Below, one piece after another: positions 1,106 through 28,098 of a stretch of DNA of 34,518 nucleotides. The notes under the pieces were generated by a model that worked only from the letters and a program-made list of their open reading frames with translations, had not been told where the DNA came from and ran no database searches. How positions within the stretch are numbered: the first letter of the stretch is position 1; the number at the start of each line of letters is the position of its first letter. Position numbers and translations under genes: made by a program. Source of the stretch: Pirellulales bacterium (GTDB lineage: Bacteria; Planctomycetota; Planctomycetia; Pirellulales; UBA7805); NCBI GenBank assembly GCA_030751095.1, contig JASMGX010000017.1:1-34518 (forward strand), written 5' to 3'.

Positions 1106-3076
1106 TTGTTGCGTGCCTCCACTTTGATAACCGTTGCCTGCCTCGCGGGCCTGTCGCTCTTGCTGATCTCCTCTTCGTTGGCCCGCGGCGAAGGAGCAAA
1201 CGAACGGAATGAAAATCTAAAGCCGATTTACCTTCCGGAAAATCGTGTATTCGCCGCCTATGTGCTGCGGGTTCAGTCGAACGCCGAGCTGGTTTCTCTC
1301 GAGCGGGGCGAAGCGGTTTATAGTGCACTGTTAAACCGGTACGGCATCGACCCCAAATACCGCAAAGAAGCGATCGCCGGTCTTGCCCAACTGCACGGCA
1401 GCGACCTGCCGAGTGAGTGGATAGCGGCATTAAAGAAAATAGACCGCGAACCGGTTATTCTTGACTGGAATCACGTAGAAAAAGAGCCCACAGACGAACA
1501 GACCGATGCGGTGATCGCAGATTTTGGCCACCTCCTTGCCCAAATGCCCGCTGAGCAGCTCGCTGCTCAAAGAGCAAACATCCATGCACTTGCCAGAGAG
1601 AGCAAACGGCCACTCGTCCGCAGCCTCGGCTATGCGGCCCTTGTGTCTGCCGGTGCGGGTGCGTCTGAAATCTGGGAGCTTGCCCGTAGCGAAAGGCGTA
1701 GCGACGCGGTCCGGGCCATCCCCTGGATCGAAAACTCTCAGATCCAATCGGAACTCTATACCAAATCGCGGCCGTTGTCTGACGAGGCAGCTAGCGACCA
1801 ACTACGGGCCGCTTTTTTTTACGCTCTCCCCTCGGTCCCGGGACACGATGAGGAAATTTTTGCAACCCTTCGTCCCGGCATCGAGAATGAACAGCTAAGA
1901 GATGTTGCGGTTACCGCGCTGCTCGGTCGCGATGCCAGCAAGTGGCCGGCGACGGAGCTGGCCCAACTGTGCAAGGAGTTGGTCGGCATTCTTAAAGCGA
2001 TGCCGCTCGAAGCGCGGGCGAGCAGTCGGGGGCGACGACTTGTTGAACTTGCAACTCGCACCGCGAAACGATTGCCGGATGAGAGTCGCTCCGCGCACCT
2101 GGCACGGATTTCGCAACTGAAGGTTGCCCAGCGGTTTCTCGGCACGCTCCGCGAGCAGATGGCTTTCGATAAGGAGTTCCTTGTCGTTGGTGCAGGGCAG
2201 CCGATCGAGCTCTATTTTACAAATAATGACGGGATGCCGCACAATGTCGTGATCGGCGCGACAGGATCTCTGGAGGAACTTGGCAGAGCCGCCGATCAGA
2301 TGGCAACCTCTCCCGAGGCACTTTCCAAAGGCTACCTTCCCGAATCCGACAAAGTCCTGCATCACACGCGAATGCTCGATATGGGCCAGATGCAAAAGCT
2401 GGTCTTTACCGCTCCCGATACGCCGGGCGTCTATCCCATGCTCTGCACTTTTCCCTCACACGCGATGCGGATGTATGCCGCCTTTGTGGTTACCGACGAC
2501 GTGGATGGCTGGCTCGCGAGTCAACAGAACGCCTCACGCGACAAATTATTGGGGATTGTGACCTATGACCACGATTTCGACGCGTTGGCCGCGGAGTTGG
2601 CGAAAGGTCCCCCGCAGTCCTCGTTTGCCCGCGGGCGGGCGGCATTCGAGTCCCGGTCTTGTGTGAGTTGCCACTCGGTACGCGGCAAAGGGGGCAGGGT
2701 AGGGCCGGAACTGACGGAGTTGGCCAAAGAGAACAAACCTACCGATATTCTCCGGTCGCTGCTTTTCCCGAGTGAGAAAATCGATCCCAATTTTGCCAAG
2801 GTGGAACTCGAAGATCTCGAGAGCGGCCAAATTCATCTCGGGGTCCTCATCCCCCAGGAGAATGAGAATATCCTGTATCTGGTCGATGACCCGCTCGGCA
2901 ACTGTGAGCCGAAGATTTTTAATAGAGACGAATGTGTTGTTGTCCCGCTCAAAGTCTCTCCGATGCCGGAGGAACTTTTGCGAAGGAGCAGTCCACAGGA
3001 GGTGATGGATCTTGTAGGCTATCTCTGGGCGGGTGGTGACCCGGAGCATCCGATCTATCAAGGACCCGAAAAATAA
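1106..3076 (+). CDS. Exported azurin-like blue copper / cytochrome c fusion protein (656 aa)
   Basis: The protein begins with a hydrophobic signal (about residues 7-27). An alpha-helical, HEAT-like region follows (about 65-345). A type-1 copper domain (about 355-463) has His379 in MPHN and then C447-TFPSH452-x3-M456, the same Cys/His/Met spacing as azurin. The C-terminal part (about 508-645) is a Pirellula/Verrucomicrobium-type haem-binding domain with CVSCH at 519-523 and a likely axial Met620 in SPMPEE. Family knowledge implies a periplasmic electron carrier passing electrons between copper and haem; the partner enzyme is unknown. Unlike many relatives it has no beta-propeller dehydrogenase domain. 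The start is TTG (1106, or the adjacent TTG at 1109), with GGAG about 15 nt upstream; no in-frame ATG precedes the signal peptide. The OmpH-like gene follows after 53 nt and is probably co-transcribed. Confidence 0.85.
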   Translation: MLRASTLITVACLAGLSLLLISSSLARGEGANERNENLKPIYLPENRVFAAYVLRVQSNAELVSLERGEAVYSALLNRYGIDPKYRKEAIAGLAQLHGSDLPSEWIAALKKIDREPVILDWNHVEKEPTDEQTDAVIADFGHLLAQMPAEQLAAQRANIHALARESKRPLVRSLGYAALVSAGAGASEIWELARSERRSDAVRAIPWIENSQIQSELYTKSRPLSDEAASDQLRAAFFYALPSVPGHDEEIFATLRPGIENEQLRDVAVTALLGRDASKWPATELAQLCKELVGILKAMPLEARASSRGRRLVELATRTAKRLPDESRSAHLARISQLKVAQRFLGTLREQMAFDKEFLVVGAGQPIELYFTNNDGMPHNVVIGATGSLEELGRAADQMATSPEALSKGYLPESDKVLHHTRMLDMGQMQKLVFTAPDTPGVYPMLCTFPSHAMRMYAAFVVTDDVDGWLASQQNASRDKLLGIVTYDHDFDALAAELAKGPPQSSFARGRAAFESRSCVSCHSVRGKGGRVGPELTELAKENKPTDILRSLLFPSEKIDPNFAKVELEDLESGQIHLGVLIPQENENILYLVDDPLGNCEPKIFNRDECVVVPLKVSPMPEELLRRSSPQEVMDLVGYLWAGGDPEHPIYQGPEK

Positions 3077-6506: not shown

Positions 6507-7778
6507 TCAGCGTAGAATCTTGGCGGGGCGTATCTGCTGGTTCTTATGCTCTTTCACATCCGCAGTCTGAGGAATGGGTACGTCGTGGCTGGCCGATTGG
6601 ACTGCATTGTCCGGTGGGGAAACTGGCGGTACAACTGCGGATGCGGTCTTCTCTGCCTCGCCCGTTTGGGCCGCCAGGATGTCCTCGCCGCCATCCGGAT
6701 TGGCAGGCTGAACGTCTGCATCCTCATCCTCGGAAGCGAAAAATTGACTTCGCAAGAGGGTGCCATCTGCCCCGTACCAGGACCAGTGGCCATTTGGCTT
6801 GCCGGCTAGATATGCACCAGTCGCCTTGAGATTTCCACTTTCGCCGTACCACTCATGTTTCCCCTCGGGGAGATTGCGAAGGTACTCGCCAGTGTGCGCC
6901 AGTTTTCCGTTTTCGTGATAGTAGGACCAAAGCCCCGTCCGCTCTCGGGTCCCTTTTTTGGCAGTAACGGACATGTTCACATTGCCGTCCCACCACCAGA
7001 CGTCGGTTGCAATGCGATAGCGGGGGAGCAGGTGGCTGCCCTCTGATTTGACATTGCCGTTGTCATGCGTCGAACGGTGCTCCGAAAGCAGTCGCCCAAA
7101 GCGAAATGTGTTGCTCTCCAGGAGTTCTCCTTCCGGCGACCATTCCCGGTGCTGCCCGGAGGGTATTCCCTGGTCGTATTCCGCTTCGCGAAGACGATTG
7201 CCACTCGGGTACCAGACCACCGAAGCCCCATGGAGTTTCTCTCGATCAAAAGTCCACAGGCGGACCTTTCGCTGCTCATCGTCGAGGATAGTCCATTCGC
7301 CATGGAGAAGCCCATCGGAAAACGTGGCCGTAGAGTGCAAGGGTAGCGTGAATCCCTGGCCGCTTGCGCCGAGAATTGTTTTTGCCTCGTCGCCGCGATA
7401 CGTTCGGCTCCATGTTCCATGCGGGCGGCCATCGCAAAACGTTCCGTGTGCGATCTGGTCACCCTCCGGGGTATACATCGTCCATTTACCATGATTGATC
7501 GGTTCATTATTTTGATCGCGACGAATATGGCGCTCAATCTGCACCGCGCCGGAGGGGTATCGCGTGCGAAGGACCTCTGTGAATTCGAAAATGTCGTTCT
7601 CCAAACTCTGTCCCACGAGGATAGACGCGTTGTTTTGGGGCCGAGCCGCTTTTAACACCGAGCTTTGAACAGCATTTGGTGTGTCATCATTCGTCGCAGA
7701 CGAGTCCTGCTCTGAACCGACGGCTGGAAGCGCCAATGCTAAGAGCAGAGCGAACGGAAGCGTTTTGCGAGCAAACAT
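6507..7778 (-). CDS. Secreted YwqK/MORN-2 repeat protein (423 aa)
   Basis: A clear signal peptide (about 1-22) precedes a long array of short aromatic repeats of the YwqK/MORN-2 type. Examples are HGKWTMYTPEGDQIAHGTF, HGEWTILDD, TGLWSYYHENGKLAHTGEY and NGHWSWYGADG, spanning about residues 70-345. Each repeat forms a beta-hairpin in this family. Databases often label such proteins 'toxin-antitoxin YwqK antitoxin', but nothing here supports a toxin partner, so a surface or periplasmic scaffold role is more likely. The C-terminal 75 residues are acidic, Pro/Ala-rich and presumably disordered. The start is well supported by AAAGGAG upstream of the ATG at 7778. It is probably a single-gene unit, divergent from the large dehydrogenase fusion. 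Confidence 0.8.
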   Translation of the reverse strand: MFARKTLPFALLLALALPAVGSEQDSSATNDDTPNAVQSSVLKAARPQNNASILVGQSLENDIFEFTEVLRTRYPSGAVQIERHIRRDQNNEPINHGKWTMYTPEGDQIAHGTFCDGRPHGTWSRTYRGDEAKTILGASGQGFTLPLHSTATFSDGLLHGEWTILDDEQRKVRLWTFDREKLHGASVVWYPSGNRLREAEYDQGIPSGQHREWSPEGELLESNTFRFGRLLSEHRSTHDNGNVKSEGSHLLPRYRIATDVWWWDGNVNMSVTAKKGTRERTGLWSYYHENGKLAHTGEYLRNLPEGKHEWYGESGNLKATGAYLAGKPNGHWSWYGADGTLLRSQFFASEDEDADVQPANPDGGEDILAAQTGEAEKTASAVVPPVSPPDNAVQSASHDVPIPQTADVKEHKNQQIRPAKILR

Positions 7779-8174: not shown

Positions 8175-11100
8175 ATGCCATCAGCGATAGCACGCAACTC
8201 CGTTCTGTTTCTCCTGCCATTTCTGCTGGCAACGCAGTCACGCCCGCCTGCTCACGCCGCAGATCCCGCAGAGAGCCAGAGGGCGGTGCGGATCGATACG
8301 CTTCACCTGCTTCCCGGTTTTGCCGCCCAGCGGCTCTATGCGGTTCCGCGTGAGCAACAGGGGTCCTGGGTCTCTTTGGCGAGAGGGCCCAATGGCAGCC
8401 TGTTTGCGAGCGACCAGGGAGAGGCCGGGATCTATAAAATCACCCCCGCGCGACTCGGCGATGCGGCGGATGTTACTCTAGTCGAGCGGATCGACGTCCC
8501 GATTTCCCACGCCCAGGGTCTCTGCTACCACCGCGGCGTACTCTACGCCAACGTGAATGGTAAGGGGCCGGGTGTCTGGGCGATCCGCGATACAGACGGC
8601 GACGGGATGTTCGATGCGGCGAAACATATCCTGCCGCTCAAAGGGGCCGGAGAACATGGGCCGCACGCAGTGTTTCCGACTCCCGATGGAGAGCATTTGA
8701 TCGTGATGGGGGGAAATTACACCCAACCGGCCAAACTCACCGCCTCTCGCCTGCCGAGTAACTGGAAGGAAGATCTTCTGCTTCCCCGTCAGTGGGATGC
8801 CCGCGGACATGCCAAGGGCCTGCTTGCGCCGGGGGGTTGGATTGCCCGGATGCGGCCGGACGGGACAGAATTCGAAATACTGAGCGTGGGATATCGCAAT
8901 ACGTATGACGCCGCGTTCTCGCCCGAGGGCGAACTTTTTACCTACGATTCGGATCTCGAATGGGATATGGGCGCCCCGTGGTACCGGCCGACTCGCATTT
9001 GTCATGTTCTCAGCGGTAGCGAATTCGGGTGGCGGTCCGGCACCGGCAAGTGGCCGAGCTATTACGAGGATTCACTCCCTCCGGTACTCGATATCGGCCC
9101 CGGCAGCCCGGTCGGGGTCACGTTTGGAACGGGGGCAAGATTTCCGACCCGTTACCAGCGGGCACTTTTCGCACTCGACTGGACGTTTGGGACAATCCAC
9201 TGCATCCATCTGAAACCGAACGGGGCCTCCTATACCGGGGAGGAAGAGGAGTTTGTCTCCGGTTCGCCGCTACCGGTGACCGACGCGCTGATCGGTGAGG
9301 ACGGGGCGTTTTATTTTACGACCGGTGGCCGGGGAACCGAATCGGCACTCTGGCGGGTGTTTTATGAGGGGGATGAAGACACGACCCCTGCCGACAAAGG
9401 GACCATTACGCATGCGGCCGAGAAACGGAGGGCGCTGGAGAAGTTTCATGGGCGGAGAGACCCGCGAGCGGTCGATGCGGCCTGGGACCAACTCGGCAGT
9501 AGCGATCGCTTCGTCCGTTATGCAGCCCGCGTGGCGATTGAAAATCAGCCGGTCCGAGAGTGGCAACGACGGGCGCTGGCAGAAACAGAGCCGCAGCGGG
9601 CAATCGTGGCGCTCATGGCGCTATGCCGACAGGGCGACAAGTCGCTGCAGGCCGACCTCTTCTCAGCTCTTATGCGGATCGATTTCGACGCGCTCCCCCT
9701 CGAGCAGAAGCTTGCGCTGTTGCGGAGTTTTGGGCTCTGCTTTATGCGACTCGGCAGTCCCTCAGAGTCGCAGCGGAACGATCTGATCTCGATGCTCGAT
9801 GAGCATTTTCCGACGGATGACGATGATGTGAACGTCGAATTGGCCCGACTGCTGGTCTATCTCGATGCCCCCACTGTTATTTCCAAAGCGCTTGCGCTGA
9901 TGGAGTCGGCCGACCCGCCACAGGTGCCCCAGTGGGGCGAGTTGATTGCCCGCAATGAAGAATACGGCTCGCCCATCGCGAAGATGCTCGAAAATTATCC
10001 ACCCTTGCTAGAAATCCAATATGCCTTTCTCCTCCGCAATCTCCGCTGGGGCTGGACCACGGCGGAGCGACGCCGCTACTTCCGTTGGTTTTTGGATGTC
10101 GCCAAACACCCGGGCGGTCTGAGCTTTGCCGGTTTTTTGGAGAATATTCGTTCCGAGGCGCTCGCCAACTGTTCCGCTGCCGAGCGGGCGGCGGTGGCGG
10201 ACCTGACGGGGCAGGAGATATTGCCCCAGCCAACGATCACCGTGACCGCTCCGGAGGGGCCGGGGCGGGACTGGACGCTCGCCGAAGCGATCCGTGCGAC
10301 GGAAGGTTCGTTGACCGGGCGGGATTTTGAGAAGGGGAAAAATCTCTTTCATGCCACCAGTTGCGTTAAATGTCACCGGTTTGATGGCGCCGGCGGTGAT
10401 GTCGGGCCTGATCTTACGAGTCTTGCAGCCCGCCTGTCGCTGAAAGATCTTTTGGAAAACATCATTGAACCGAGCCGGGTGATCTCCGACCAGTATGGCT
10501 CGACGCTCATTACCACCGCCGACGGCAAGGAGTTGCTCGGAAGGCTCGTGGACCGCAGAGCAGAGGATCCGGACGGAACGGTTCGTTTTTTTACGCAAGA
10601 TCCTGATGCAGCGCCGCTCCTCCTTCGCGAGGAGGATATTGAACAAAAGGTGCCCTCGCCCATCTCGCAAATGCCTTTGGGTCTGCTCAAGCCGCTTTCG
10701 GCAGAGGAACTCCGCGATTTGGTGGCCTACCTGCTCTCGCGGGGCAATCCCTCTGATGTCCGCTTTGCAAAGCCGGAAACGAGCAAAGAGAAAAGCGATG
10801 GAGTAAAAGCGTCCGGAGCAAAAGCATCTGCATCCACTGCTTCCGGAGAAGCCGCGGTGCGGAAGTTCCGTTTTGAATACTCCGGGTCGATCGACGAGGT
10901 GCCGCCGGGCGCACGGGTGCGGATCTGGCTGCCGCTGCCGAGGCAGGATGCCGCACAGGAGGTATCGGTGCGCGATGTAAAGCTTCCGGCCAAGCATCGC
11001 CCCGGTACCGAAGAGCGGTACGGCAATAGAATGGTGTTCGCCGAGACGACCGCCCGGGAGGGCGTTTCCATTCCTTTTCGTCTTTTCTACGACATCACCC

Positions 11101-11738
11101 GCAGGGAACTGCTCGGGGGTTCTGGAACAAAAATTTCAGAAAAGGATCGCAAACTGTTTCTCTCGCCAAATCGGCTCGTGCCGGTGGGGGAAAAGCCTGC
11201 AACTCTGGCCGCTGCCTGGCCAGATTCTACCGATCCCCTCGAGCGATCGCTTGCGATTTACGAGGGCGTTTTGCAGCACATGCAGTACGACAAATCGCGA
11301 CCCGGTTTTGGCCGCGGGGATGCCCGCTGGGCCTGCGAGAGTCGGTTTGGAAACTGTACCGATTTTCACAGCCTGTTCATTTCTATTGCCCGCGGCCGCA
11401 AGGTGCCTTCCCGTTTTGAGATGGGCTTTCCGCTGCCGGGCGATGCACGTGAGGGAACTGTGGGCGGCTACCATTGCTGGGCCCATTTTTATGTCGACGG
11501 AAAAGGCTGGATCCCGCTCGACATCTCCGAGGCGGACAAACACCCCAGTTTGAGGCGTTATTATTTTGGCAACCTTTCAGCAGATCGGTTCTCCCTCTCG
11601 AGGGGAAGGGATCTGGTGCTCTCGCCCCCGCAGTCGGGCCCGCCACTGAATTACTTTGTCTATCCCTATGTGGAGGTGGACGGAGAGGTCTGGCCACAGG
11701 AAAAAATCGAGAAACATTTCCGCTTTCGCGATCTCTAA
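8175..11738 (+). CDS. Exported fusion: PVC-type dehydrogenase propeller, cytochrome c and transglutaminase-like domain (1187 aa)
   Basis: A signal peptide (about 1-29, ending AHA) is followed by a beta-propeller of the Pirellula/Verrucomicrobium 'membrane-bound dehydrogenase' type (about 40-400). The propeller carries a calcium-loop sequence DTDGDGMFD (139-147). A helical region (about 410-690) leads to a haem-binding domain with CVKCH at 730-734 and likely axial Met833 (about 715-858). A Ser/Ala/Lys-rich linker (about 866-893) joins this to a transglutaminase-like domain (894-1187) with Cys1061 (GNCTDFH), His1100 (GGYHCW) and Asp1116 (PLDIS). The propeller plus haem suggests oxidation of a sugar or alcohol, with electrons leaving through cytochrome c. 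Transglutaminase folds hydrolyse or cross-link peptides or amides. ATG 8175 was chosen because it gives a clean signal peptide; TTG 8154 is the alternative. Neither has a good ribosome site. The gene converges on the Gfo/Idh operon. Substrates are unknown. Confidence 0.85.
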   Translation: MPSAIARNSVLFLLPFLLATQSRPPAHAADPAESQRAVRIDTLHLLPGFAAQRLYAVPREQQGSWVSLARGPNGSLFASDQGEAGIYKITPARLGDAADVTLVERIDVPISHAQGLCYHRGVLYANVNGKGPGVWAIRDTDGDGMFDAAKHILPLKGAGEHGPHAVFPTPDGEHLIVMGGNYTQPAKLTASRLPSNWKEDLLLPRQWDARGHAKGLLAPGGWIARMRPDGTEFEILSVGYRNTYDAAFSPEGELFTYDSDLEWDMGAPWYRPTRICHVLSGSEFGWRSGTGKWPSYYEDSLPPVLDIGPGSPVGVTFGTGARFPTRYQRALFALDWTFGTIHCIHLKPNGASYTGEEEEFVSGSPLPVTDALIGEDGAFYFTTGGRGTESALWRVFYEGDEDTTPADKGTITHAAEKRRALEKFHGRRDPRAVDAAWDQLGSSDRFVRYAARVAIENQPVREWQRRALAETEPQRAIVALMALCRQGDKSLQADLFSALMRIDFDALPLEQKLALLRSFGLCFMRLGSPSESQRNDLISMLDEHFPTDDDDVNVELARLLVYLDAPTVISKALALMESADPPQVPQWGELIARNEEYGSPIAKMLENYPPLLEIQYAFLLRNLRWGWTTAERRRYFRWFLDVAKHPGGLSFAGFLENIRSEALANCSAAERAAVADLTGQEILPQPTITVTAPEGPGRDWTLAEAIRATEGSLTGRDFEKGKNLFHATSCVKCHRFDGAGGDVGPDLTSLAARLSLKDLLENIIEPSRVISDQYGSTLITTADGKELLGRLVDRRAEDPDGTVRFFTQDPDAAPLLLREEDIEQKVPSPISQMPLGLLKPLSAEELRDLVAYLLSRGNPSDVRFAKPETSKEKSDGVKASGAKASASTASGEAAVRKFRFEYSGSIDEVPPGARVRIWLPLPRQDAAQEVSVRDVKLPAKHRPGTEERYGNRMVFAETTAREGVSIPFRLFYDITRRELLGGSGTKISEKDRKLFLSPNRLVPVGEKPATLAAAWPDSTDPLERSLAIYEGVLQHMQYDKSRPGFGRGDARWACESRFGNCTDFHSLFISIARGRKVPSRFEMGFPLPGDAREGTVGGYHCWAHFYVDGKGWIPLDISEADKHPSLRRYYFGNLSADRFSLSRGRDLVLSPPQSGPPLNYFVYPYVEVDGEVWPQEKIEKHFRFRDL

Positions 11739-11798: not shown

Positions 11799-13811
11799 CT
11801 AAGAGTATTCACTGCGGCTAAGATCGGGGGCAATGCCCTCGGGTGTTTCGTCGCTGTTTGGGTCAAACCACGCCTCGTTAAACTCGATGCGAGAGTTTTC
11901 GCCCTTCGCGCCGCGGGCAATGGCCAGGTTGGCGGTAAGTGCAATCACAGCGTCGGCCAGGGCGACAGCAGGACTGCATCGCAGGGGAACCGAGAGTTGG
12001 CTCGCATCTTTGCCTTGGGCCTCAAGCTGTGCCCGCTGCCGAATTGCCCAGCAGAGGTGCTCGATCTGTTCGGTATACCCCCGGCTGATCGGACCGCTCA
12101 GGGCCTGGCGGGCGAGGTTGGCATCCGAACTGCCCGGCTTGCCGTCGACGAAGTAACATTCCTGTGCGTTGTGTTTTTTGCGGGCGGCGATCTGCGCCGG
12201 AGTGTATTTTCCGTTCTTGGGTCGCGCGAGCAGCACCACCTCTTTTTCGCGGTCGAGAATCAACGAACCTTTGGTTCCCAGAACCGTCTCTCCATAGCCG
12301 CCAAATCCGTTGCCGTTGATGCTCGAATAGCTCACGACGATTTTCTTTTCGGGGGCATTTTCAGGATCGTAGTCGGGTGCCGGGTATTCAAACTGACAGT
12401 AGACATGGTCGTCGATGTCCCGGTCGTGTGGAAAAACATGCCGCCCGCCGACGCCGGTGACACTCAGAGGCCGGGCCTTCTGGCCGTCATCGCGTAGCGC
12501 GGTGATAAAGATCCCCGCAGCATCGAGCTGGTGGGAACCGAGTTCTGCCATCAAGCCCCCGCCGGTCCGATCCCAGAGCCTCCAGCGAATCAATTCCTCG
12601 ATTGCCGGAATCTCGCGGCCACCCACGGTGCGGTCGCGATAGCCGTGATCTTTGATGCGGGTAGCAACCTCGGCGTCCTGAAGCTGGTGCTGGAGCATCT
12701 CGACGCGATCGGCAAGTGCGGTGAGGTTGAATTTCCGGGCCATCGCCGGGTCGAGTCGGAGCTTCCGGATGTAGGTCTTATTGACGGCGGCAAGACGTGT
12801 CTCGGTCGCGGCAATCTGATCCGAAATCTTCTGCCTCGCGGCAGTGTCGGGCGAACCGGAACGGGCCAGTTGGGCGAGTTGGTCGCGTAGCTTGCGGATC
12901 TTCAGTGGATGCTGCTGGAGTTCTTTGTCGAACTTGGCGAGCAGGGCAAGGGTTTTTTTGTCTTTGATTTTCGCCTTCGCTTCCAGCTTGATCCGGTCGA
13001 AGTTTTTCTCGGCCTTTGCGAGGGTATCCTCCGCCTCCTGAAGTTGTGCCCGCATCTCCGGGTCGGTCGGAAGCGGTTTCTGCCAACTGTCGTTGCCCGG
13101 CAGATTGTCGCGATGCCACTGGGCGCGGATGTGATGGATCGGGCCGATAAGATTGTTTTTGATCAAGGCGACGGCGTTTTCATAGAGCACGCTATAGTGC
13201 CGTTGGTGTCCGACCGAAAGCAGCCGGTCTTGCTCTACCGCTGCGCGGGCCATCTCTTTGCACTCGTGCACGCTATGCGCCATCAGCTTTTCGCACAATA
13301 CGTGTTTCCCCTTGCGCAGCGCTTTGATCGTTGCGACCGCATGCAGGTGCAGCGGCAGGGCGATGATCACCGCCTCAACGTCAGGATTCTCGAGCAGTTC
13401 GTCATAGCCGTTTTCATAGACCGCGACCTCTTTGCGGGCCGTCGCCTCGTCGGGCCAGCCGTAGACCTTTAAGAGGCCGGGCCGGACCCGGCGAGTGTTG
13501 GCGCTCGATTTGTCGCCATGAAAGGCGCGGTAGATGTTGAAGGGGCGGATGTCGGCAATCGCCACCACCTGGGCGTAGGCGGGGTTGATCGCTCCGATCA
13601 ACACGCTTCCTTCATCACCGGTGCCGATCACACCAATCTTGACCGGCCGATCGGCCTCGCCGTATTTGAAATATTGTGCACCCAGTCCGGCGCCGGAGAC
13701 GAGCTGCTCATTGACGCTCTTGCGAAGCACAGCACCCGACGTGTACCGACTGCCGACGGCGGCATAGAAATTTTCAATGCCGAGTTCTTTGTCTTCCGGG
13801 CTGAGTTTCAT
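11799..13811 (-). CDS. Gfo/Idh/MocA-family oxidoreductase with long coiled-coil insert, no Tat signal (670 aa)
   Basis: The NAD(P)-binding fold has GVIGTGDEG (about 60-68) and the variant catalytic motif CEKLM (173-177; EKP in most relatives). The second domain contains GGGLMAELGSHQLD (417-430) and SYSSINGNGFGGYGE. Between the domains lies a highly charged helical insert (about 252-386), probably a coiled coil, which makes the protein nearly twice the usual family length of about 350-400. Residues 22-52 align with the Tat signal of the upstream paralogue, including GAGLGAQYFKYG, but lack the twin Arg and much of the hydrophobicity. The ATG overlaps the upstream stop (ATGA), and GGAG lies 8 nt before it, so the two genes are translationally coupled. 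It may be a subunit of a complex with the paralogue. The substrate is unknown, likely a sugar or polyol. Confidence 0.85.
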   Translation of the reverse strand: MKLSPEDKELGIENFYAAVGSRYTSGAVLRKSVNEQLVSGAGLGAQYFKYGEADRPVKIGVIGTGDEGSVLIGAINPAYAQVVAIADIRPFNIYRAFHGDKSSANTRRVRPGLLKVYGWPDEATARKEVAVYENGYDELLENPDVEAVIIALPLHLHAVATIKALRKGKHVLCEKLMAHSVHECKEMARAAVEQDRLLSVGHQRHYSVLYENAVALIKNNLIGPIHHIRAQWHRDNLPGNDSWQKPLPTDPEMRAQLQEAEDTLAKAEKNFDRIKLEAKAKIKDKKTLALLAKFDKELQQHPLKIRKLRDQLAQLARSGSPDTAARQKISDQIAATETRLAAVNKTYIRKLRLDPAMARKFNLTALADRVEMLQHQLQDAEVATRIKDHGYRDRTVGGREIPAIEELIRWRLWDRTGGGLMAELGSHQLDAAGIFITALRDDGQKARPLSVTGVGGRHVFPHDRDIDDHVYCQFEYPAPDYDPENAPEKKIVVSYSSINGNGFGGYGETVLGTKGSLILDREKEVVLLARPKNGKYTPAQIAARKKHNAQECYFVDGKPGSSDANLARQALSGPISRGYTEQIEHLCWAIRQRAQLEAQGKDASQLSVPLRCSPAVALADAVIALTANLAIARGAKGENSRIEFNEAWFDPNSDETPEGIAPDLSRSEYS

Positions 13812-15508
13812 GATGCGTACTCCGGGCGTTGGGTATTCGGTGCAACAGCCTCGGGGGTCGCATCGCTTTGAGGGTCGAACCAGGCGGGGTCGAACTCGAT
13901 GCGGCATTGGGTGTCGATCGCCCGATTGGCAACCAGGGCAATGACAGCGTCCGCGAGTGCTACCTTTGGGCCGCAGCGGGGAACGTTTGCCGGATCGCGG
14001 TTGCGGATGCACCAGGCCCAATGTTCGATCTCTTCGGTGTAGCCGCGCGAGACCGGTCCGGAGGCGGCCTTCGTCTCGGCCGCCGCGTAGGTGCCGCTCT
14101 CGGTGGTGTCGAGGGCAGGTCCGGCCGTCTTGTCGGCCTGGATCGTGGTCGGTTTGTCCTTTTGGTAGAGCTCGACTTCCCGTTCCCGTTCGATCACGAT
14201 TGTCCCGTTCGTCCCCATCACAATCTCGCCATAGCCACCAAAGCCGTTTCCGTTGATTGATGAATAGGAAACGACGATTTTTTTGTTCCTGTCCCGGTCG
14301 TACTGCGGAGAAGGAAATTCAAAATTGCAGTAGACGTGGTCCGCCGCATCGCGGTCGGGCGGAAAGAGGTGCCGGCCCCCGTTGCCGCATACGCTCAAAG
14401 GCTGGACTTTTTCGCCGTCCTCACGCAGCGCGCTGATGAAAATAGATGCAGCGTCGAGTTGGTGGCTGCCGAGTTCGGCCATCAGCCCGCCCCCGGTACG
14501 GTTCCAGAGTCGCCAGCGGATCAACTCCTCATGGGGCGAGAAGGTTTTGACCTCACCGCCTGGAAGTGAAAGTTTTGGCGACTGGTATCCGTATTTTTCC
14601 GCATCCACATGTTGGTCGAGCAGGCGAAGGTGTGCGAGTTTGCGTTTGTTTTCCGCCACCGCGCGTCTGGCCGCGAGCGAACTGCTCCAGCTCGAGGGAT
14701 TGGTCGATACGGTGAGGCGATCGAGCAACTCCTCCGACTCGGTCGCATATTGGTCCATCTCCGCGCGGAGAGCATCGTCGGGTAACTGCTGCTGCCAACT
14801 GTCGCGGCCCGGCAGGTTGCCCCGATGCCACTGGGCCCGGATGTGGTGGATGTCGCCGATGATGCCGCGACGGATCATTTCTCGTGCGTTGTCGTAGAGA
14901 ATGCTGTAATGGCGCTGGTGGCCGACCGCGAGGATCTGATTGTTTTCCGCAGCGACACGGGCCATCTCCTTGCACTCATGAACGCTGTGCCCCATCAGTT
15001 TCTCGCACAGCACATGCTTGCCTTTGCGCATCGCCTTGATGGAGGCGGCCGCATGCAGGTGTAGCGGCAGAGCGATGATCACCCCTTCGATGTCCGGGTC
15101 GTCGAGAAGGTCCTCGTAGCGATCGTCATAGACTTTGATCGCTCGCCTGGCTGCTGCTTCGTCGCTAAAACCATATTTGTCGATCAGGCCGGGTCTGGCA
15201 GAGAGGGCACTGGTACTCGAAGCGTCGCCATGAAAAGCGCGGTAGATGTTGTAGGGGCGAATATCTGCAATGGCGGCGACCTGAACGTAATCGGGATTGA
15301 TCGCGCCCATCAGGACGCCCCCCTCGTCCCCGGTGCCGATCACACCGACGCGGACCGGGTTGCGGACGCTGCTGCCATAGCCGAAGTAGAGGGCCCCGAG
15401 GCCGACCCCGCCGACCACGCCCGCGGCCACGCCACCACGCAACAGGTCGCGCCGCGTGAAGCCGCTTCTGTGCTCCTGTTGTCCGAGATCAGTGGGCTCG
15501 GGCTCCAT
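13808..15508 (-). CDS. Tat-exported Gfo/Idh/MocA-family oxidoreductase (566 aa)
   Basis: The N-terminus carries a Tat signal: FTRRDLLRGG at 17-26 followed by an Ala/Gly/Val-rich hydrophobic stretch to about 43. This implies export of a folded protein with its nicotinamide cofactor already bound, as known for Zymomonas glucose-fructose oxidoreductase. The Rossmann motif GVIGTGDEG is at about 55-63, CEKLM at 168-172, and GGGLMAELGSHQLD at 339-352. A shorter helical insert (about 243-310) sits where the downstream paralogue has its long coiled coil. The two proteins are otherwise closely similar and share the C-terminal SRGYTE.IEH and FDP.WFDP motifs. ATG 15508 has AGGAG 9 nt upstream. It is the middle gene of an apparent DoxX-Gfo-Gfo operon, 70 nt after DoxX and overlapping the next gene by 4 nt. 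Confidence 0.88.
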   Translation of the reverse strand: MEPEPTDLGQQEHRSGFTRRDLLRGGVAAGVVGGVGLGALYFGYGSSVRNPVRVGVIGTGDEGGVLMGAINPDYVQVAAIADIRPYNIYRAFHGDASSTSALSARPGLIDKYGFSDEAAARRAIKVYDDRYEDLLDDPDIEGVIIALPLHLHAAASIKAMRKGKHVLCEKLMGHSVHECKEMARVAAENNQILAVGHQRHYSILYDNAREMIRRGIIGDIHHIRAQWHRGNLPGRDSWQQQLPDDALRAEMDQYATESEELLDRLTVSTNPSSWSSSLAARRAVAENKRKLAHLRLLDQHVDAEKYGYQSPKLSLPGGEVKTFSPHEELIRWRLWNRTGGGLMAELGSHQLDAASIFISALREDGEKVQPLSVCGNGGRHLFPPDRDAADHVYCNFEFPSPQYDRDRNKKIVVSYSSINGNGFGGYGEIVMGTNGTIVIEREREVELYQKDKPTTIQADKTAGPALDTTESGTYAAAETKAASGPVSRGYTEEIEHWAWCIRNRDPANVPRCGPKVALADAVIALVANRAIDTQCRIEFDPAWFDPQSDATPEAVAPNTQRPEYAS

Positions 15509-15578
15509 CGTGACATTCTCCTGATGGTTGGCTCGCGAATGGGCGAATTTGTCACCTACGCACAAGCCGCGTACATGT

Positions 15579-20726: not shown

Positions 20727-22124
20727 ATGAAAAATCAGATTTCCAGGCGTACGTTCGTGCATGCAGCTACCGTGACAGCAACGGGCTATTGGGTAGCGGG
20801 CGGCTTGGAAGCTGCTGAGCCGCGGAGTGCGAACAGCAAGGTCCAGTTCGCCTGTATCGGAATCGGCGGCAAGGGGTCGAGCGACTCGGCTGATGCTGGA
20901 AAAAACGGCGATGTCGTCGGGATTTGCGACACCGATGCGAATCGACTCAAAGGCGCATCAAAACGATTCAAAGGCGCGGCGACATTTTCTGATTTTCGCG
21001 CGATGCTCGAGCAACTCGGCGATAAGGTCGATGCGGTCACCGTGAGCACCCCGGACCATACCCATGCCGTCGCAGCGGCCAAGGCGATGTCGATGGGCAA
21101 ACATTGCTTTTGCCAGAAACCGTTGACTCACACTATTTACGAAGCCCGCTATCTTGGCGAGTTGGCACAGAAGATGGGTGTGGCGACCGAGATGGGCAAC
21201 CAGGGGACCGCATACAACGGTCTGCGGGAGGCGGCAGCGATTGTACAATCTGGCGGTATTGGAGATGTCGAGTCGGTCCATGTCTGGACCAATCGACCGG
21301 TCTGGCCACAGGGCGGACCGCGACCGGCGTCGGAAAAGGTTCCCGCGAACCTCTCTTGGGATGAGTGGCTTGGCCCCGCACCCGAGCGGCCCTACGGCAA
21401 GGGCTACCACCCCTTTACCTGGCGGGGTTGGTGGGATTTCGGCACCGGGGCGCTTGGCGATATGGCCTGCCACACATTCAACATGCCCTTTGCCGCACTC
21501 AATCTTCGGGATCCGGTATCGGTTCAGGCTGAGACATCGGGGCACAACGGGGAGAGTTATCCCAAATGGTCGCAGATCCACTTTGTCTTTCCAGCGACCG
21601 GTGACCGCAAGGCGGTCGATGTCTTTTGGTACGACGGCGGCAAGCGGCCCGATCCGGCGCTCATCGGCAAAAAGAAACTGGCATCATCCGGTTCCATGCT
21701 CGTCGGCAGCAGTGGAACCATCTATTCGCCTGCTGATTATGGCGAAAAGTTTGAAGTCATCGGCGAAGGTGGCAAGGTACTGCAAAAACCGAAGGTTGAA
21801 ATCGATCGATCGCCCGGCCATTTCAAGGAATGGGTTGCCGCGATCCGGGGTGGACGGCCTGCGATGTCCAATTTTGTGGACTACGCCGGCCCGCTCACCG
21901 AGACGATTCTGCTCGGGAACCTTGCGGTCTGGGCCGCAGCACCGGGAGGCGAGGGGAAGAGGGTCGATTGGGATGCCGAGAGCCTCGTCGCCAAAGACGC
22001 ACCGGAGTTGGCCACGATTGTCCGTAGCGAGTACCGGCCCGGTTGGGAACTGGCGGGCGCTCTCACAGCGGAAAACGCGCCTCGGAGCAATCGTCGCGGC
22101 CGCTTCCGTAATCGTCGCGGATAA
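20727..22124 (+). CDS. Tat-exported Gfo/Idh/MocA-family oxidoreductase (465 aa)
   Basis: A Tat signal is clear (ISRRTF at 5-10, then a hydrophobic stretch ending GLEAA at about 30). The Rossmann domain begins CIGIGGKGSSD (43-53), and the catalytic region reads CQKPLTH (129-135), with Gln in place of Glu of the EKP motif but Lys130 kept. The C-terminal sheet domain (about 160-430) has WRGWWDFGTGALGDMACH, typical of the large planctomycete subgroup of exported Gfo/Idh proteins. The tail is Arg-rich (NRRGRFRNRRG). Exported members probably work as NAD(P)-bound sugar oxidoreductases or epimerases in the periplasm; the substrate is unknown. The ATG has AAGGAGG 9 nt upstream. The gene stands alone between the LRR gene and an AT-rich gap. 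Confidence 0.88.
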   Translation: MKNQISRRTFVHAATVTATGYWVAGGLEAAEPRSANSKVQFACIGIGGKGSSDSADAGKNGDVVGICDTDANRLKGASKRFKGAATFSDFRAMLEQLGDKVDAVTVSTPDHTHAVAAAKAMSMGKHCFCQKPLTHTIYEARYLGELAQKMGVATEMGNQGTAYNGLREAAAIVQSGGIGDVESVHVWTNRPVWPQGGPRPASEKVPANLSWDEWLGPAPERPYGKGYHPFTWRGWWDFGTGALGDMACHTFNMPFAALNLRDPVSVQAETSGHNGESYPKWSQIHFVFPATGDRKAVDVFWYDGGKRPDPALIGKKKLASSGSMLVGSSGTIYSPADYGEKFEVIGEGGKVLQKPKVEIDRSPGHFKEWVAAIRGGRPAMSNFVDYAGPLTETILLGNLAVWAAAPGGEGKRVDWDAESLVAKDAPELATIVRSEYRPGWELAGALTAENAPRSNRRGRFRNRRG

Positions 22125-22537: not shown

Positions 22538-23707
22538 ATGATGGATTATCACTACGTAAAGCGTATGACTAACTGTTTGCTCCTTGCAATTGTTGTTTGT
22601 TGCGCACTGCTTTTCTATGGCGCCGCCGGGCGGGTATATGGCCAAACGAACACGGCATTAGGCGGTGCCTTTAGCGCGGCGAACGTTAGCGCGCTTACGA
22701 GTATCGGGGTCGGTGCCGAAAATAACAGCGCGTTTGGTGCAAATGCCTCAGCGGCCCTTACGGTAGCTGACAATACTACAGCCGTTGGTTTTAATGCACT
22801 CTCTTCTGCTACTGATGGCGATGCCAATAATGCCTTCGGCAGTCAGGCGTTGTCGTCCTTAGTGACCGGGGTGGGAAATAACGCCTTTGGATTTAACGCG
22901 CTGCTTAGTAACTCGCCTGCGGGGGCTGCGTTCGGCGAGGGCGATAACAACAATGCGTTCGGTAACAGCGCATTGCAGTCGAATACATTAGGAACTGGCA
23001 ATACAGCGGTCGGCGAGAGTGCTTTGCGATTGAATGTGGCAGGTAACGAGAATGTTGCTGTCGGCATGAGAGCATTGAACCAAAGTACAGGATCCAATAA
23101 TGTTGGAGTGGGTTTTGAGTCACTTCGTGACATTTCGACAGGTGACGCAAATACTGCCATTGGGTATCATTCAAATTTCTCAACGACAAATTCCGTACAA
23201 TCGACCGCGATTGGCTCGAATACTGTCGCGACTGGCACTTCGTCCACGGCCATTGGTTATAGTGCGGAGGCACTTGCCGATAATGCCACCGCGATAGGCA
23301 CTGGGGCAACCGCCACTCGGGTCAATCAAATGGCGATGGGCACCACAGCGAGTACCTATACAATGCCCGGAATCGGCTCATCCGCCAGCCGCGCGGCACA
23401 ATCGGGCCCCACGGAGTTTGTGACCGCCGATGCTAATGGGAATCTCTCCACGGACGGTGGAGCGACAAATATTATCATCAACAAAAATACGCATGGGATT
23501 GCCGGCGCTTTTGCAATCTCGGGCATACCCGAGGTGCTCCCCAACGGCACCAACTATGCGGTCTCAGCCAATTGGGGAACATTCGGGGGCGCAAACGCAG
23601 CGGCTCTCGGTGGGGTGGCGAGAGTCGACGGCGATCTTTTTTTTAATGCCGCAACGGTACTCGGTTATGCTCCTGGAGCCCGGGCAGGTTTGACCTACTG
23701 CTGGTAG
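22538..23707 (+). CDS. Short YadA-type trimeric autotransporter (389 aa)
   Basis: An N-terminal signal segment (hydrophobic 12-30) is followed by a head (about 36-270) built of YadA/Hep-Hag style repeats with the A-[IVF]-G core. Examples are NTTAVGFNAL, NNAFGNSAL, NTAVGESAL, NTAIGYHS and STAIGSNTV; these form a left-handed beta-roll in the family. Residues 271-310 resemble the conserved neck (TYTMPGI...AAQSGPTEFVTADANGNLSTDGG). The last 70 residues match the YadA membrane anchor: a short helix (GIAGAFAISGIP), then four amphipathic strands ending in an aromatic residue (GLTYCW). Almost no coiled-coil stalk lies between neck and anchor, so the protein would sit close to the outer membrane. Family members trimerise, and many are adhesins. 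ATG 22538 (or the adjacent ATG 22541) has no strong ribosome site. A small exported protein follows after 21 nt. Confidence 0.82.
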   Translation: MMDYHYVKRMTNCLLLAIVVCCALLFYGAAGRVYGQTNTALGGAFSAANVSALTSIGVGAENNSAFGANASAALTVADNTTAVGFNALSSATDGDANNAFGSQALSSLVTGVGNNAFGFNALLSNSPAGAAFGEGDNNNAFGNSALQSNTLGTGNTAVGESALRLNVAGNENVAVGMRALNQSTGSNNVGVGFESLRDISTGDANTAIGYHSNFSTTNSVQSTAIGSNTVATGTSSTAIGYSAEALADNATAIGTGATATRVNQMAMGTTASTYTMPGIGSSASRAAQSGPTEFVTADANGNLSTDGGATNIIINKNTHGIAGAFAISGIPEVLPNGTNYAVSANWGTFGGANAAALGGVARVDGDLFFNAATVLGYAPGARAGLTYCW

Positions 23708-25987: not shown

Positions 25988-26968
25988 ATGAATGAATTTC
26001 CAACACCGACGCGGGCCATCTTGCCATCGGTCCTCGGTGCCATCGGCGCAACGCCCCTTGTGGATCTGAGGCGACTGACGGCCGATCTTGAGGGCCATAT
26101 CTATGCAAAACTAGAGTACATGAGTCCTGGCCACTCTAAAAAAGATCGCATTGCGCTTGCGATCATCGAAGCGGCCGAGGAGAGGGGGGAGTTATCGCCG
26201 GGACAGACTGTGGTCGAGATGACCTCCGGCAATACGGGGACCGGGGTCGCCATCGTCTGCGCGGTGAAGGGATACCGGTTTGTGGCCGTGATGAGTGAGG
26301 GAAATTCCTCCGAGCGGGTGAGGATGATGCAGGCGCTCGGGGCGGAGGTGGTACTGGTCGATCAGGCTTCGGGAGGACACTGCGGTCAGGTCCGGGGCGA
26401 TGACCTTTCGCTCGTGGAGGATGCAGCACGAAAGATTGCCCAATCGCGCGATGCGTTTCTGGTCGATCAGTTTGTCCGCCGCGAAAACGCTCTGGCCCAC
26501 GAGTTGGGGACCGCCCAAGAAATTCTCCGGCAGACGGGCGGTGCGTTTGATGCTTTTTGCGATTTTGCAGGAACCGGCGGCAGCTTTGCCGGATGTACCA
26601 AAGCCTTTAAAGAATTTAACGAATCGATCCGCTGTTATCTGATTGAGCCGGCCGGCGCTGAGGTGCTCGCCGGAGCGGTGCCGCCGTACAGTGAACATCC
26701 GATCCAGGGGGGCGGGTACAGTCGCGAACTGCCGCTGATCGACAAAACGCTCGTGGATGGTTTTTTGTCCGTGACCGGTGCCGATGGGAGGCACTGGGCG
26801 CACCGTCTTGCCAGTGAAGAGGGAATTTTTGGCGGTTTTTCTTCAGGGGCCAACGTAGCTGCCGCAGCGCAGTTGCTTGCGGGTGAGATGGCCGGCAGCT
26901 CCATTGTCACGATGATCTGTGACTCGGGCCTGAAATATCTCTCGACCGATCTCTGGGGCGAGGATTAA
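25988..26968 (+). CDS. Cysteine synthase family PLP-dependent enzyme (326 aa)
   Basis: This is a fold-type II PLP enzyme of the CysK/CBS family. The PLP lysine is Lys52 in GHSKKDR (usually GSVKDR). The substrate-binding loop is TSGNTGTG (79-86), the phosphate-binding loop GTGGS (about 195-199), and the C-terminal serine motif GGFSSGAN (about 282-289). Length matches O-acetylserine sulfhydrylases, which make cysteine from O-acetylserine and sulfide. The unusual GHSKK in place of PGGSVK and GGFSSGA in place of GISSGA suggest a divergent subfamily that may use another substrate. It has no C-terminal CBS domains. The ATG has no strong ribosome site. The gene converges on an atypical Gfo/Idh gene and shares its stop region (TTAA). 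Confidence 0.82.
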   Translation: MNEFPTPTRAILPSVLGAIGATPLVDLRRLTADLEGHIYAKLEYMSPGHSKKDRIALAIIEAAEERGELSPGQTVVEMTSGNTGTGVAIVCAVKGYRFVAVMSEGNSSERVRMMQALGAEVVLVDQASGGHCGQVRGDDLSLVEDAARKIAQSRDAFLVDQFVRRENALAHELGTAQEILRQTGGAFDAFCDFAGTGGSFAGCTKAFKEFNESIRCYLIEPAGAEVLAGAVPPYSEHPIQGGGYSRELPLIDKTLVDGFLSVTGADGRHWAHRLASEEGIFGGFSSGANVAAAAQLLAGEMAGSSIVTMICDSGLKYLSTDLWGED

Positions 26969-27981
26969 CCGTCGAGTTCGATTCGCCGGCCTTCTGCCTC
27001 ACTTTCGCGACCGGCCAATACAATCGCCATCGACCGGTAGGCGTCGTTGAGATCCGACTGCCGGCGGACGAGGCTCGTGACCGCGCGAAAAAAATGGTCC
27101 AGTAGTTGCTCTCCGACGGGGCGGTCAGCTTCGAGCGATTCGCGGTGACGGCCCGCCGAATCAAACCAGGTGACCGTAGATGGAAAGTCGATAAATGCGA
27201 CACCCCGCTCGCAGGAGACCTGCATCGCGCTCGGCGGCCTGAACGCAATCGCCTCGGGCCAATTGGTAGGCAGGTAATGCCCACAGCTCAACTGGGCGGT
27301 AACGGGCATCGCGCCATCGCCCTCAATGGGTGCAAACTGGAGGCTGAGCATTTCGTAATCGGTTTGGTAAGGTCCGCCACCTGCCGCTTTGTGCGCGACC
27401 CCCGTAACGGTCGAAGGTTCGTTGCCCACCACAAAACGGCACCAGTCGACCAGCTCAACCATGTGGAACATCGGCATGCCCTGTGGGGGCTCCGCATGCT
27501 CTTGTTCCTCTTCGACCAATAATCGCTGGTGGCAAAAGATGAGCCTCGGATTGCCGAGATGGGTTGCAATCAATTCTTTGAGCCTGAGCGTGGCAGGTGC
27601 GTGTCGCTTGGGCAACTCCGCCATGAAGGCGATGCCCGATTTCTCCACGCGTTTCTTAAGTTTGTAGGCGGATTGCAGATCGATATTCAGTGCCATCGCG
27701 CAGTAGACCGCTTTGCCGGAATCGCAGGCCGCAAGAATAGGCAGCGGGCCGTACCACTGCGGGGCGAGCATCAAGACGGCGTCGATGTCTTCGGCACGTA
27801 TCAGCGCACGAAAACTGTGGTAGAGGCGGGCGTCAAAGGCCGCAGCGGCCTGCTCAGCGCGGTGCGAGACCTGTTCGCAGACGCCCCGAACCTCAATCCG
27901 GTCGTTCATGGCCCGTAGCACGGGTGCATGGCGTTTTTGCCAGCTGCTACCGAGGCCGATCAGGCCGACACGGAGCTTCAT
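26965..27981 (-). CDS. Atypical Gfo/Idh/MocA-like protein lacking the EKP motif (338 aa)
   Basis: The N-terminal Rossmann domain is clear (VGLIGLGSSWQKRH at 5-18), and the length fits the family. However, the catalytic EKP segment reads CAMALN (94-99), so the conserved lysine is missing. The usual D.G.H..D region is replaced by FHMVELVDWCRF. No signal peptide is present, so the protein is cytoplasmic, unlike the other Gfo/Idh proteins here. It may be a non-catalytic or repurposed member; a true dehydrogenase role is doubtful. ATG 27981 begins the Rossmann strand directly; the ribosome site is weak, and a longer reading to 28092 would run through the promoter. It is divergent from rpmB, and its stop overlaps the stop of the cysteine-synthase-like gene by 4 bp. 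Confidence 0.8.
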   Translation of the reverse strand: MKLRVGLIGLGSSWQKRHAPVLRAMNDRIEVRGVCEQVSHRAEQAAAAFDARLYHSFRALIRAEDIDAVLMLAPQWYGPLPILAACDSGKAVYCAMALNIDLQSAYKLKKRVEKSGIAFMAELPKRHAPATLRLKELIATHLGNPRLIFCHQRLLVEEEQEHAEPPQGMPMFHMVELVDWCRFVVGNEPSTVTGVAHKAAGGGPYQTDYEMLSLQFAPIEGDGAMPVTAQLSCGHYLPTNWPEAIAFRPPSAMQVSCERGVAFIDFPSTVTWFDSAGRHRESLEADRPVGEQLLDHFFRAVTSLVRRQSDLNDAYRSMAIVLAGRESEAEGRRIELDG

Positions 27982-28033
27982 AGGATTTAATTTTCGAGGA
28001 CTTGGCGGACGACAGATCGGTTTAAGGGTGGCA

Positions 28034-28063
28034 ATTATACCGCTAGAAACAGTCCGCGCCCAA
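28034..28063 (-). promoter_or_regulatory. Promoter of the atypical Gfo/Idh-like gene
   Basis: The minus strand shows TTGGGC (28058-28063), an 18-nt spacer and a perfect TATAAT (28034-28039), about 52 nt upstream of the ATG at 27981. It lies back to back with the rpmB promoter. Confidence 0.55.
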
Positions 28064-28098
28064 TCGTCACGCACATGCGGCGGCAAGGCCAAGCGGTC

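Follow-up and report, generated by a model that had tools for sequence, protein, structure and literature searches.

In this locus, a propeller resembling sugar dehydrogenases is read in one frame with a c-type haem domain and a transglutaminase-like (TG) domain, and the question is whether the three really form one protein and, if so, whether the two halves act on a common reaction. The frame lies in a window of 34,518 nucleotides (the whole stretch of DNA that was analysed) from a Pirellulales bacterium. In the original prediction, the exported chain was proposed to couple the oxidation of a glycan or amine to the cross-linking or trimming of a surface polymer. From the analyses below, the protein is considered, with fair confidence, as a genus-specific fusion of two exported enzymes that arose once and was undone once, the halves sharing export and no reaction. 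What is new is the domain architecture, confined to one genus in our surveys; the component families are known.

As had been claimed, the frame was open throughout from ATG to TAA (positions 8175-11738, + strand), and its translation gave 1187 amino acids from the signal peptide to the stop. Its parts and the flanking genes are collected in Table 1. The upstream neighbour is divergent and the downstream one convergent, so the fusion gene was regarded as monocistronic, with no operon partner. Scanning of the window for tRNA and Rfam matches gave none, and nothing clearly exceeding the shuffled controls was obtained from the promoter and terminator scans.

Table 1. Features of the fusion gene and its neighbours (positions in the window; residues of the 1187-residue translation)
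Feature	Position	Strand	Residues and basis
Sec signal peptide	8175..8258	+	residues 1-28, MPSAIARNSVLFLLPFLLATQSRPPAHA followed by AD, cleavage between AHA and AD; read from translation
Beta-propeller, sGDH-like	8292..9374	+	residues ~40-400; TIGR02604 2e-16 (below cut-off), AlphaFold2 strands, PDB matches
Helical HEAT-like repeats	9402..10244	+	residues ~410-690; predicted helices, profile matches to alphaRep/HEAT chains
c-type haem domain	10323..10739	+	residues 717-855; TIGR02603 2e-26, Kustd1711 (7zs0) match, orthologue alignment
CVKCH haem site	10362-10376	+	residues 730-734
Ser/Ala/Lys-rich linker (~30 aa)	10770..10856	+	residues ~866-894; pLDDT <50, 19-28% interspecies identity
TG domain	10857..11735	+	residues ~895-1187; PF01841, pLDDT 93.3, PDB matches
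TG triad	Cys1061 (11355), His1100 (11472), Asp1116 (11520)	+	invariant in 25 sequences
Upstream neighbour, secreted MORN-repeat protein	6507..7778	-	divergent from fusion gene
Downstream neighbour, Gfo/Idh/MocA oxidoreductase GfoA	11799..13811	-	convergent with fusion gene

Assignment of the parts was done with Pfam and NCBIfam. Transglut_core (PF01841) was matched at 5.8e-22, with 78.5 bits against a gathering threshold of 23; the triad residues were found where they had been predicted, in three columns invariant among the 25 TG homologues. By score, triad and fold, the TG half belongs to the transglutaminase-like superfamily, in which transferases and hydrolases are not separable by sequence or fold. 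For the haem domain, Cytochrom_C was matched at 8.8e-9, TIGR02603 scored 92.6 bits (cut-off 68.15), and the predicted CVKCH site was accompanied by a Met833 invariant in 11 orthologues, as is expected of a c-type cytochrome; Met833 is the putative distal haem ligand. TIGR02604, for the N-terminal domain, reached 60.3 bits in the window protein and 56-65 bits in other members of the genus, below its cut-off of 122.2, and judging by sequence the N-terminal module diverges from the PVC-type haem proteins to which it is related and is not a formal TIGR02604 member. A planctomycete genome holds many copies of PVC-type haem proteins, whose functions are poorly known. The N-terminal ~860 residues share with these proteins the propeller, the helical repeats and the haem domain in the same order, with 45-52% identity to the order-level orthologues of this half; a C-terminal TG domain is present in none of the literature-described members found. 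Residues ~40-858 are not one propeller: the propeller covers residues ~40-400, and the rest proved to be the HEAT-like repeats and the haem domain.

The predicted structure agreed with this division. AlphaFold2 gave a pLDDT of 93.3 for the TG domain alone and of 80.4 for the whole mature chain (pTM 0.60), with the linker below 50; the linker is predicted to be disordered and, given these values, the relative placement of the halves is undefined. With one query, Foldseek returned sGDH-type sugar dehydrogenases (2ism, 3a9g, 3das and 1cq1 in the PDB) together with 3isr, a TG-like protein, and the cytochrome Kustd1711; the TG domain was matched by 3isr and TgpA (6g49/6g4h). The diheme cytochrome c Kustd1711 (7zs0) has the same haem-domain fold (sequence profile 7.6e-26) but is a free two-haem cytochrome. 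The TG-like proteins 3isr, from Cytophaga hutchinsonii, and TgpA share the TG fold at 14-15% identity, in matched chains without a redox domain.

Since the window comes from a MAG in 469 contigs and of 82% completeness, hence fragmented, an artefact, by which neighbouring genes were merged through misassembly or recent loss of a stop codon, had to be excluded. The genus sample consisted of six genomes (G000 to G005), and the unbroken fusion was also found in two more species, G003 and G004, with 66% and 65% identity to the window copy, respectively. The order of genes around it, namely cupredoxin-cytochrome, OmpH, histidine kinase, MORN, fusion, GfoA, GfoB, DoxX, 2-hydroxyacid dehydrogenase, protein kinase, LRR and GfoC, was kept in G003, G004 and G005, the G004 contig starting inside the first gene. 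Because a diverged and selected fusion stands in identical gene order in the assemblies of two other species, an artefact is extremely improbable and a stop codon lost near 10770-10860, a concern of the original prediction, is excluded in practice; the fusion in the window species is genuine.

Several other genes of the window were recorded. The first gene of the locus (1106-3076, + strand), which keeps its place in G003 and G005 and can be seen in part in G004, encodes a secreted protein in which a cupredoxin of plastocyanin type is joined to a TIGR02603-like haem domain; it may serve the haem enzymes as an electron partner. GfoA and GfoB (11799-15565, - strand) are adjacent and mutually related Gfo/Idh/MocA oxidoreductases, a Tat-like RRDLL motif being present at the N-terminus of GfoB, and further Gfo genes lie at 20727-22124 and 26965-28092. 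At 22538-23707 (+ strand), YadA head-domain repeats were matched in Pfam (5.2e-10), unexpectedly for a planctomycete.

Selection on the parts was estimated from the divergence at codon positions 1, 2 and 3 between the G000 and G003 copies, which was 0.36, 0.25 and 0.63 for the TG domain, 0.20, 0.12 and 0.62 for the propeller, and 0.61, 0.56 and 0.69 for the linker, respectively. The linker, with 19-28% identity between species, has thus diverged at all codon positions, and purifying selection acts on both halves and not on the linker. As synonymous sites were saturated, a dN/dS value is withheld.

To determine how rare the architecture is, overlapping genome samples of the order (397), the class (398) and the phylum (392) were surveyed. 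Outside the fusion, the TG family is a separate protein of ~340-380 aa, widespread in Planctomycetota and Acidobacteriota, and among the matches listed from the three samples fused frames were found in the window genus only; the comparison of domain architectures in Planctomycetota, proposed with the original prediction, hence bore out its view that exported redox and amide-type domains in one chain are unusual. Among 80 named loci, the TG gene stood alone in 79, the only fused one being that of Planctomycetaceae bacterium TMED10 (NHBP01000015.1, the same locus as in G003). Most order-level homologues of the stand-alone type have 41-54% identity to the TG half and share the invariant Cys, His and Asp and the motif around them; many carry their own N-terminal hydrophobic signal or lipobox, in place of which the fusion has the linker. 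Large frames in six genomes (G500, G507, G552, G533, G317 and G457) were rejected as further fusions of this TG, as they resemble overruns from stop to stop in GC-rich DNA, and so was one in G319 (L175), with extra residues ahead of the TG domain but without a redox domain. A literature search for a TG-cytochrome fusion found none, and one relevant paper on the function of the TIGR02604/TIGR02603 family.

The neighbourhoods of the stand-alone TG genes were also inspected. A haem dehydrogenase accompanied the TG gene in only three of the 80 loci (L095, L105 and L130) within the stretch covered, which by a rough estimate is not above the expectation from the abundance of such proteins, and a consistent link between the two genes was rejected. 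A TorD/NarJ-like gene was seen 80-300 bp upstream of the TG gene in many of ten loci (L091, L095, L097, L100, L101, L111, L114, L127, L129 and L144), the L091 copy matching Nitrate_red_del at 5.7e-9, which suggests a separate functional link for that stand-alone TG family. In Acidobacteriota, a gene for an ABC transporter ATPase was seen near the stand-alone TG gene (L122, L137, L139, L142, L143, L149, L152, L153 and L158; Pfam check on the L122 copy).

Bearing on the history of the fusion is a further species, G005 (99% complete), in which the gene order is kept and the TG half is absent. Its protein stops 28 aa past the LLSRGN motif, ~25 bp from the convergent end of GfoA, by which the syntenic site without the TG half is marked; a search for a related TG in the rest of the G005 genome gave nothing but a far match (E 6e-5). 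Outgroup orthologues end ~8 aa past the motif, so the G005 tail, ~20 aa longer, looks like leftover linker. In G001 (65% complete) and G002 (62%), no orthologue of either half was found, an uninformative result at such completeness. When a tree was built from the haem-enzyme half, G005 was sister to G004 (91/81) and both grouped with G003 (100/99), inside the fused clade; a topology that kept the fused sequences together without G005 was rejected (p-AU 0.0007). The three TG domains formed one clade (SH-aLRT 99), and in both trees the window copy was the first to branch off. The nested position of G005 and the AU test thus point to one fusion, likely at the base of the genus or close to it, followed by one loss of the TG half; ancestral absence of TG from G005 is disfavoured by the same tree and test.

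For the N-terminal module, the comparison with sGDH/Asd proteins (PF07995; 1cq1, 2ism, 3das) gave a divided result. The propeller fold is shared, and the invariant His161 and Arg241-Asn242 of the orthologue alignment line up with the catalytic His and the Arg-Asn of sGDH, in which we take the PQQ-binding residues to be His144, Arg228-Asn229, Lys377, Arg406 and Arg408. When the protein was aligned with 2ism, although only weakly, the position of Arg408, where 2ism has Arg, fell on the invariant Thr369, so the PQQ-carboxylate-binding Arg seems to be replaced; the positions of Lys377 and Arg406 were mapped by eye only. Pfam GSDH (PF07995) gave no match in the fusion protein and matched one of the 11 orthologues, at 2.3e-4. 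None of 195 Planctomycetota genomes had PqqC (TIGR02111) above cut-off, and neither did any of the control genomes, which leaves the sensitivity of the search unproven; within the six genomes of the genus, there was no PqqC match and no PqqE above cut-off, again with no control genome above cut-off. PQQ synthesis, looked for as support for a quinoprotein, was not found by a search without a working positive control. As sGDH-like propeller haem proteins abound in spite of this, PQQ may be scavenged or unused, or the search may be insensitive. The use of PQQ by the N-terminal module is doubtful.

These observations bear on a further explanation, by which the propeller would cleave or bind carbohydrate beside a haem domain without being a working quinoprotein dehydrogenase, and the TG domain would sit on this module as on a targeting platform. 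Lac161_ORF7, which has the same three parts (TIGR02604, HEAT and cytochrome c), was purified and reported as a beta-galactosidase hydrolysing lactose with a Km of 1.8 mM (PMC5342196), and with Thr369 and the PqqC result it speaks for such a module. Lac161_ORF7 is, however, a distant verrucomicrobial relative, the best propeller fold match is sGDH with His161 and Arg-Asn kept, PQQ could be scavenged, and the PqqC search was silent in all control genomes; the explanation is accordingly rated as possible and rather improbable. In Verrucomicrobia, the genomic context suggests that planctomycete-specific cytochrome c genes take part in the use of carbohydrates (PMC5615132). From the sGDH-like fold, the Lac161_ORF7 report and this context, the module is likely a carbohydrate-active periplasmic enzyme, which would either oxidise or cleave its substrate.

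In the fusion of independent enzymes that we favour, the N-terminal ~860 residues would probably be a periplasmic carbohydrate-active redox enzyme, with a soluble carrier taking up the electrons from its haem. The TG half, ~290 residues at the C-terminus, would be a catalytically complete TG-like enzyme of the cysteine acyl-transfer type, elsewhere separate with its own signal peptide, and most likely hydrolyses or transfers amide bonds of peptides or proteins in the envelope. Through the floppy linker, the TG domain would ride on the export, expression and location of the haem enzyme without a common reaction.

Against this stands a coupled bifunctional enzyme, in which an amine or a glycan would be oxidised by the propeller and haem, and the product would be used by the TG domain to cross-link or trim a surface polymer. 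It is consistent with a TG triad and a haem motif that look complete, and with purifying selection on both halves in three species, the fusion having persisted across clear divergence. The TG domain was, however, dispensable in G005 while the rest was kept, the linker is flexible and fast-evolving, stand-alone TG genes are not consistently beside such haem proteins, and no amine-oxidase domain was seen with Pfam or NCBIfam. Coupling is for these reasons considered unlikely, and independence of the halves the likelier, with the argument drawn mainly from a single loss in G005, one MAG. To our knowledge there is no precedent for a redox-amide bifunctional catalyst, and a single exported enzyme that couples the electron-transferring oxidation of an envelope or extracellular glycan to a cysteine-mediated transfer or cleavage of amides in that polymer is judged quite unlikely. 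The proposed coupling of oxidation to cross-linking or trimming was accordingly not upheld, the doubtful quinoprotein activity adding to the points above. The maintenance of the fusion under selection in at least three species could nevertheless reflect a functional benefit beyond co-export.

With fused and un-fused alleles at the same locus in one genus, a clean comparative system is provided. If the halves cooperate, the partner domain would point to envelope peptides or glycoproteins as the substrate of the haem enzyme; if they do not, the locus would represent a traceable case of gene fusion and loss through co-export alone.
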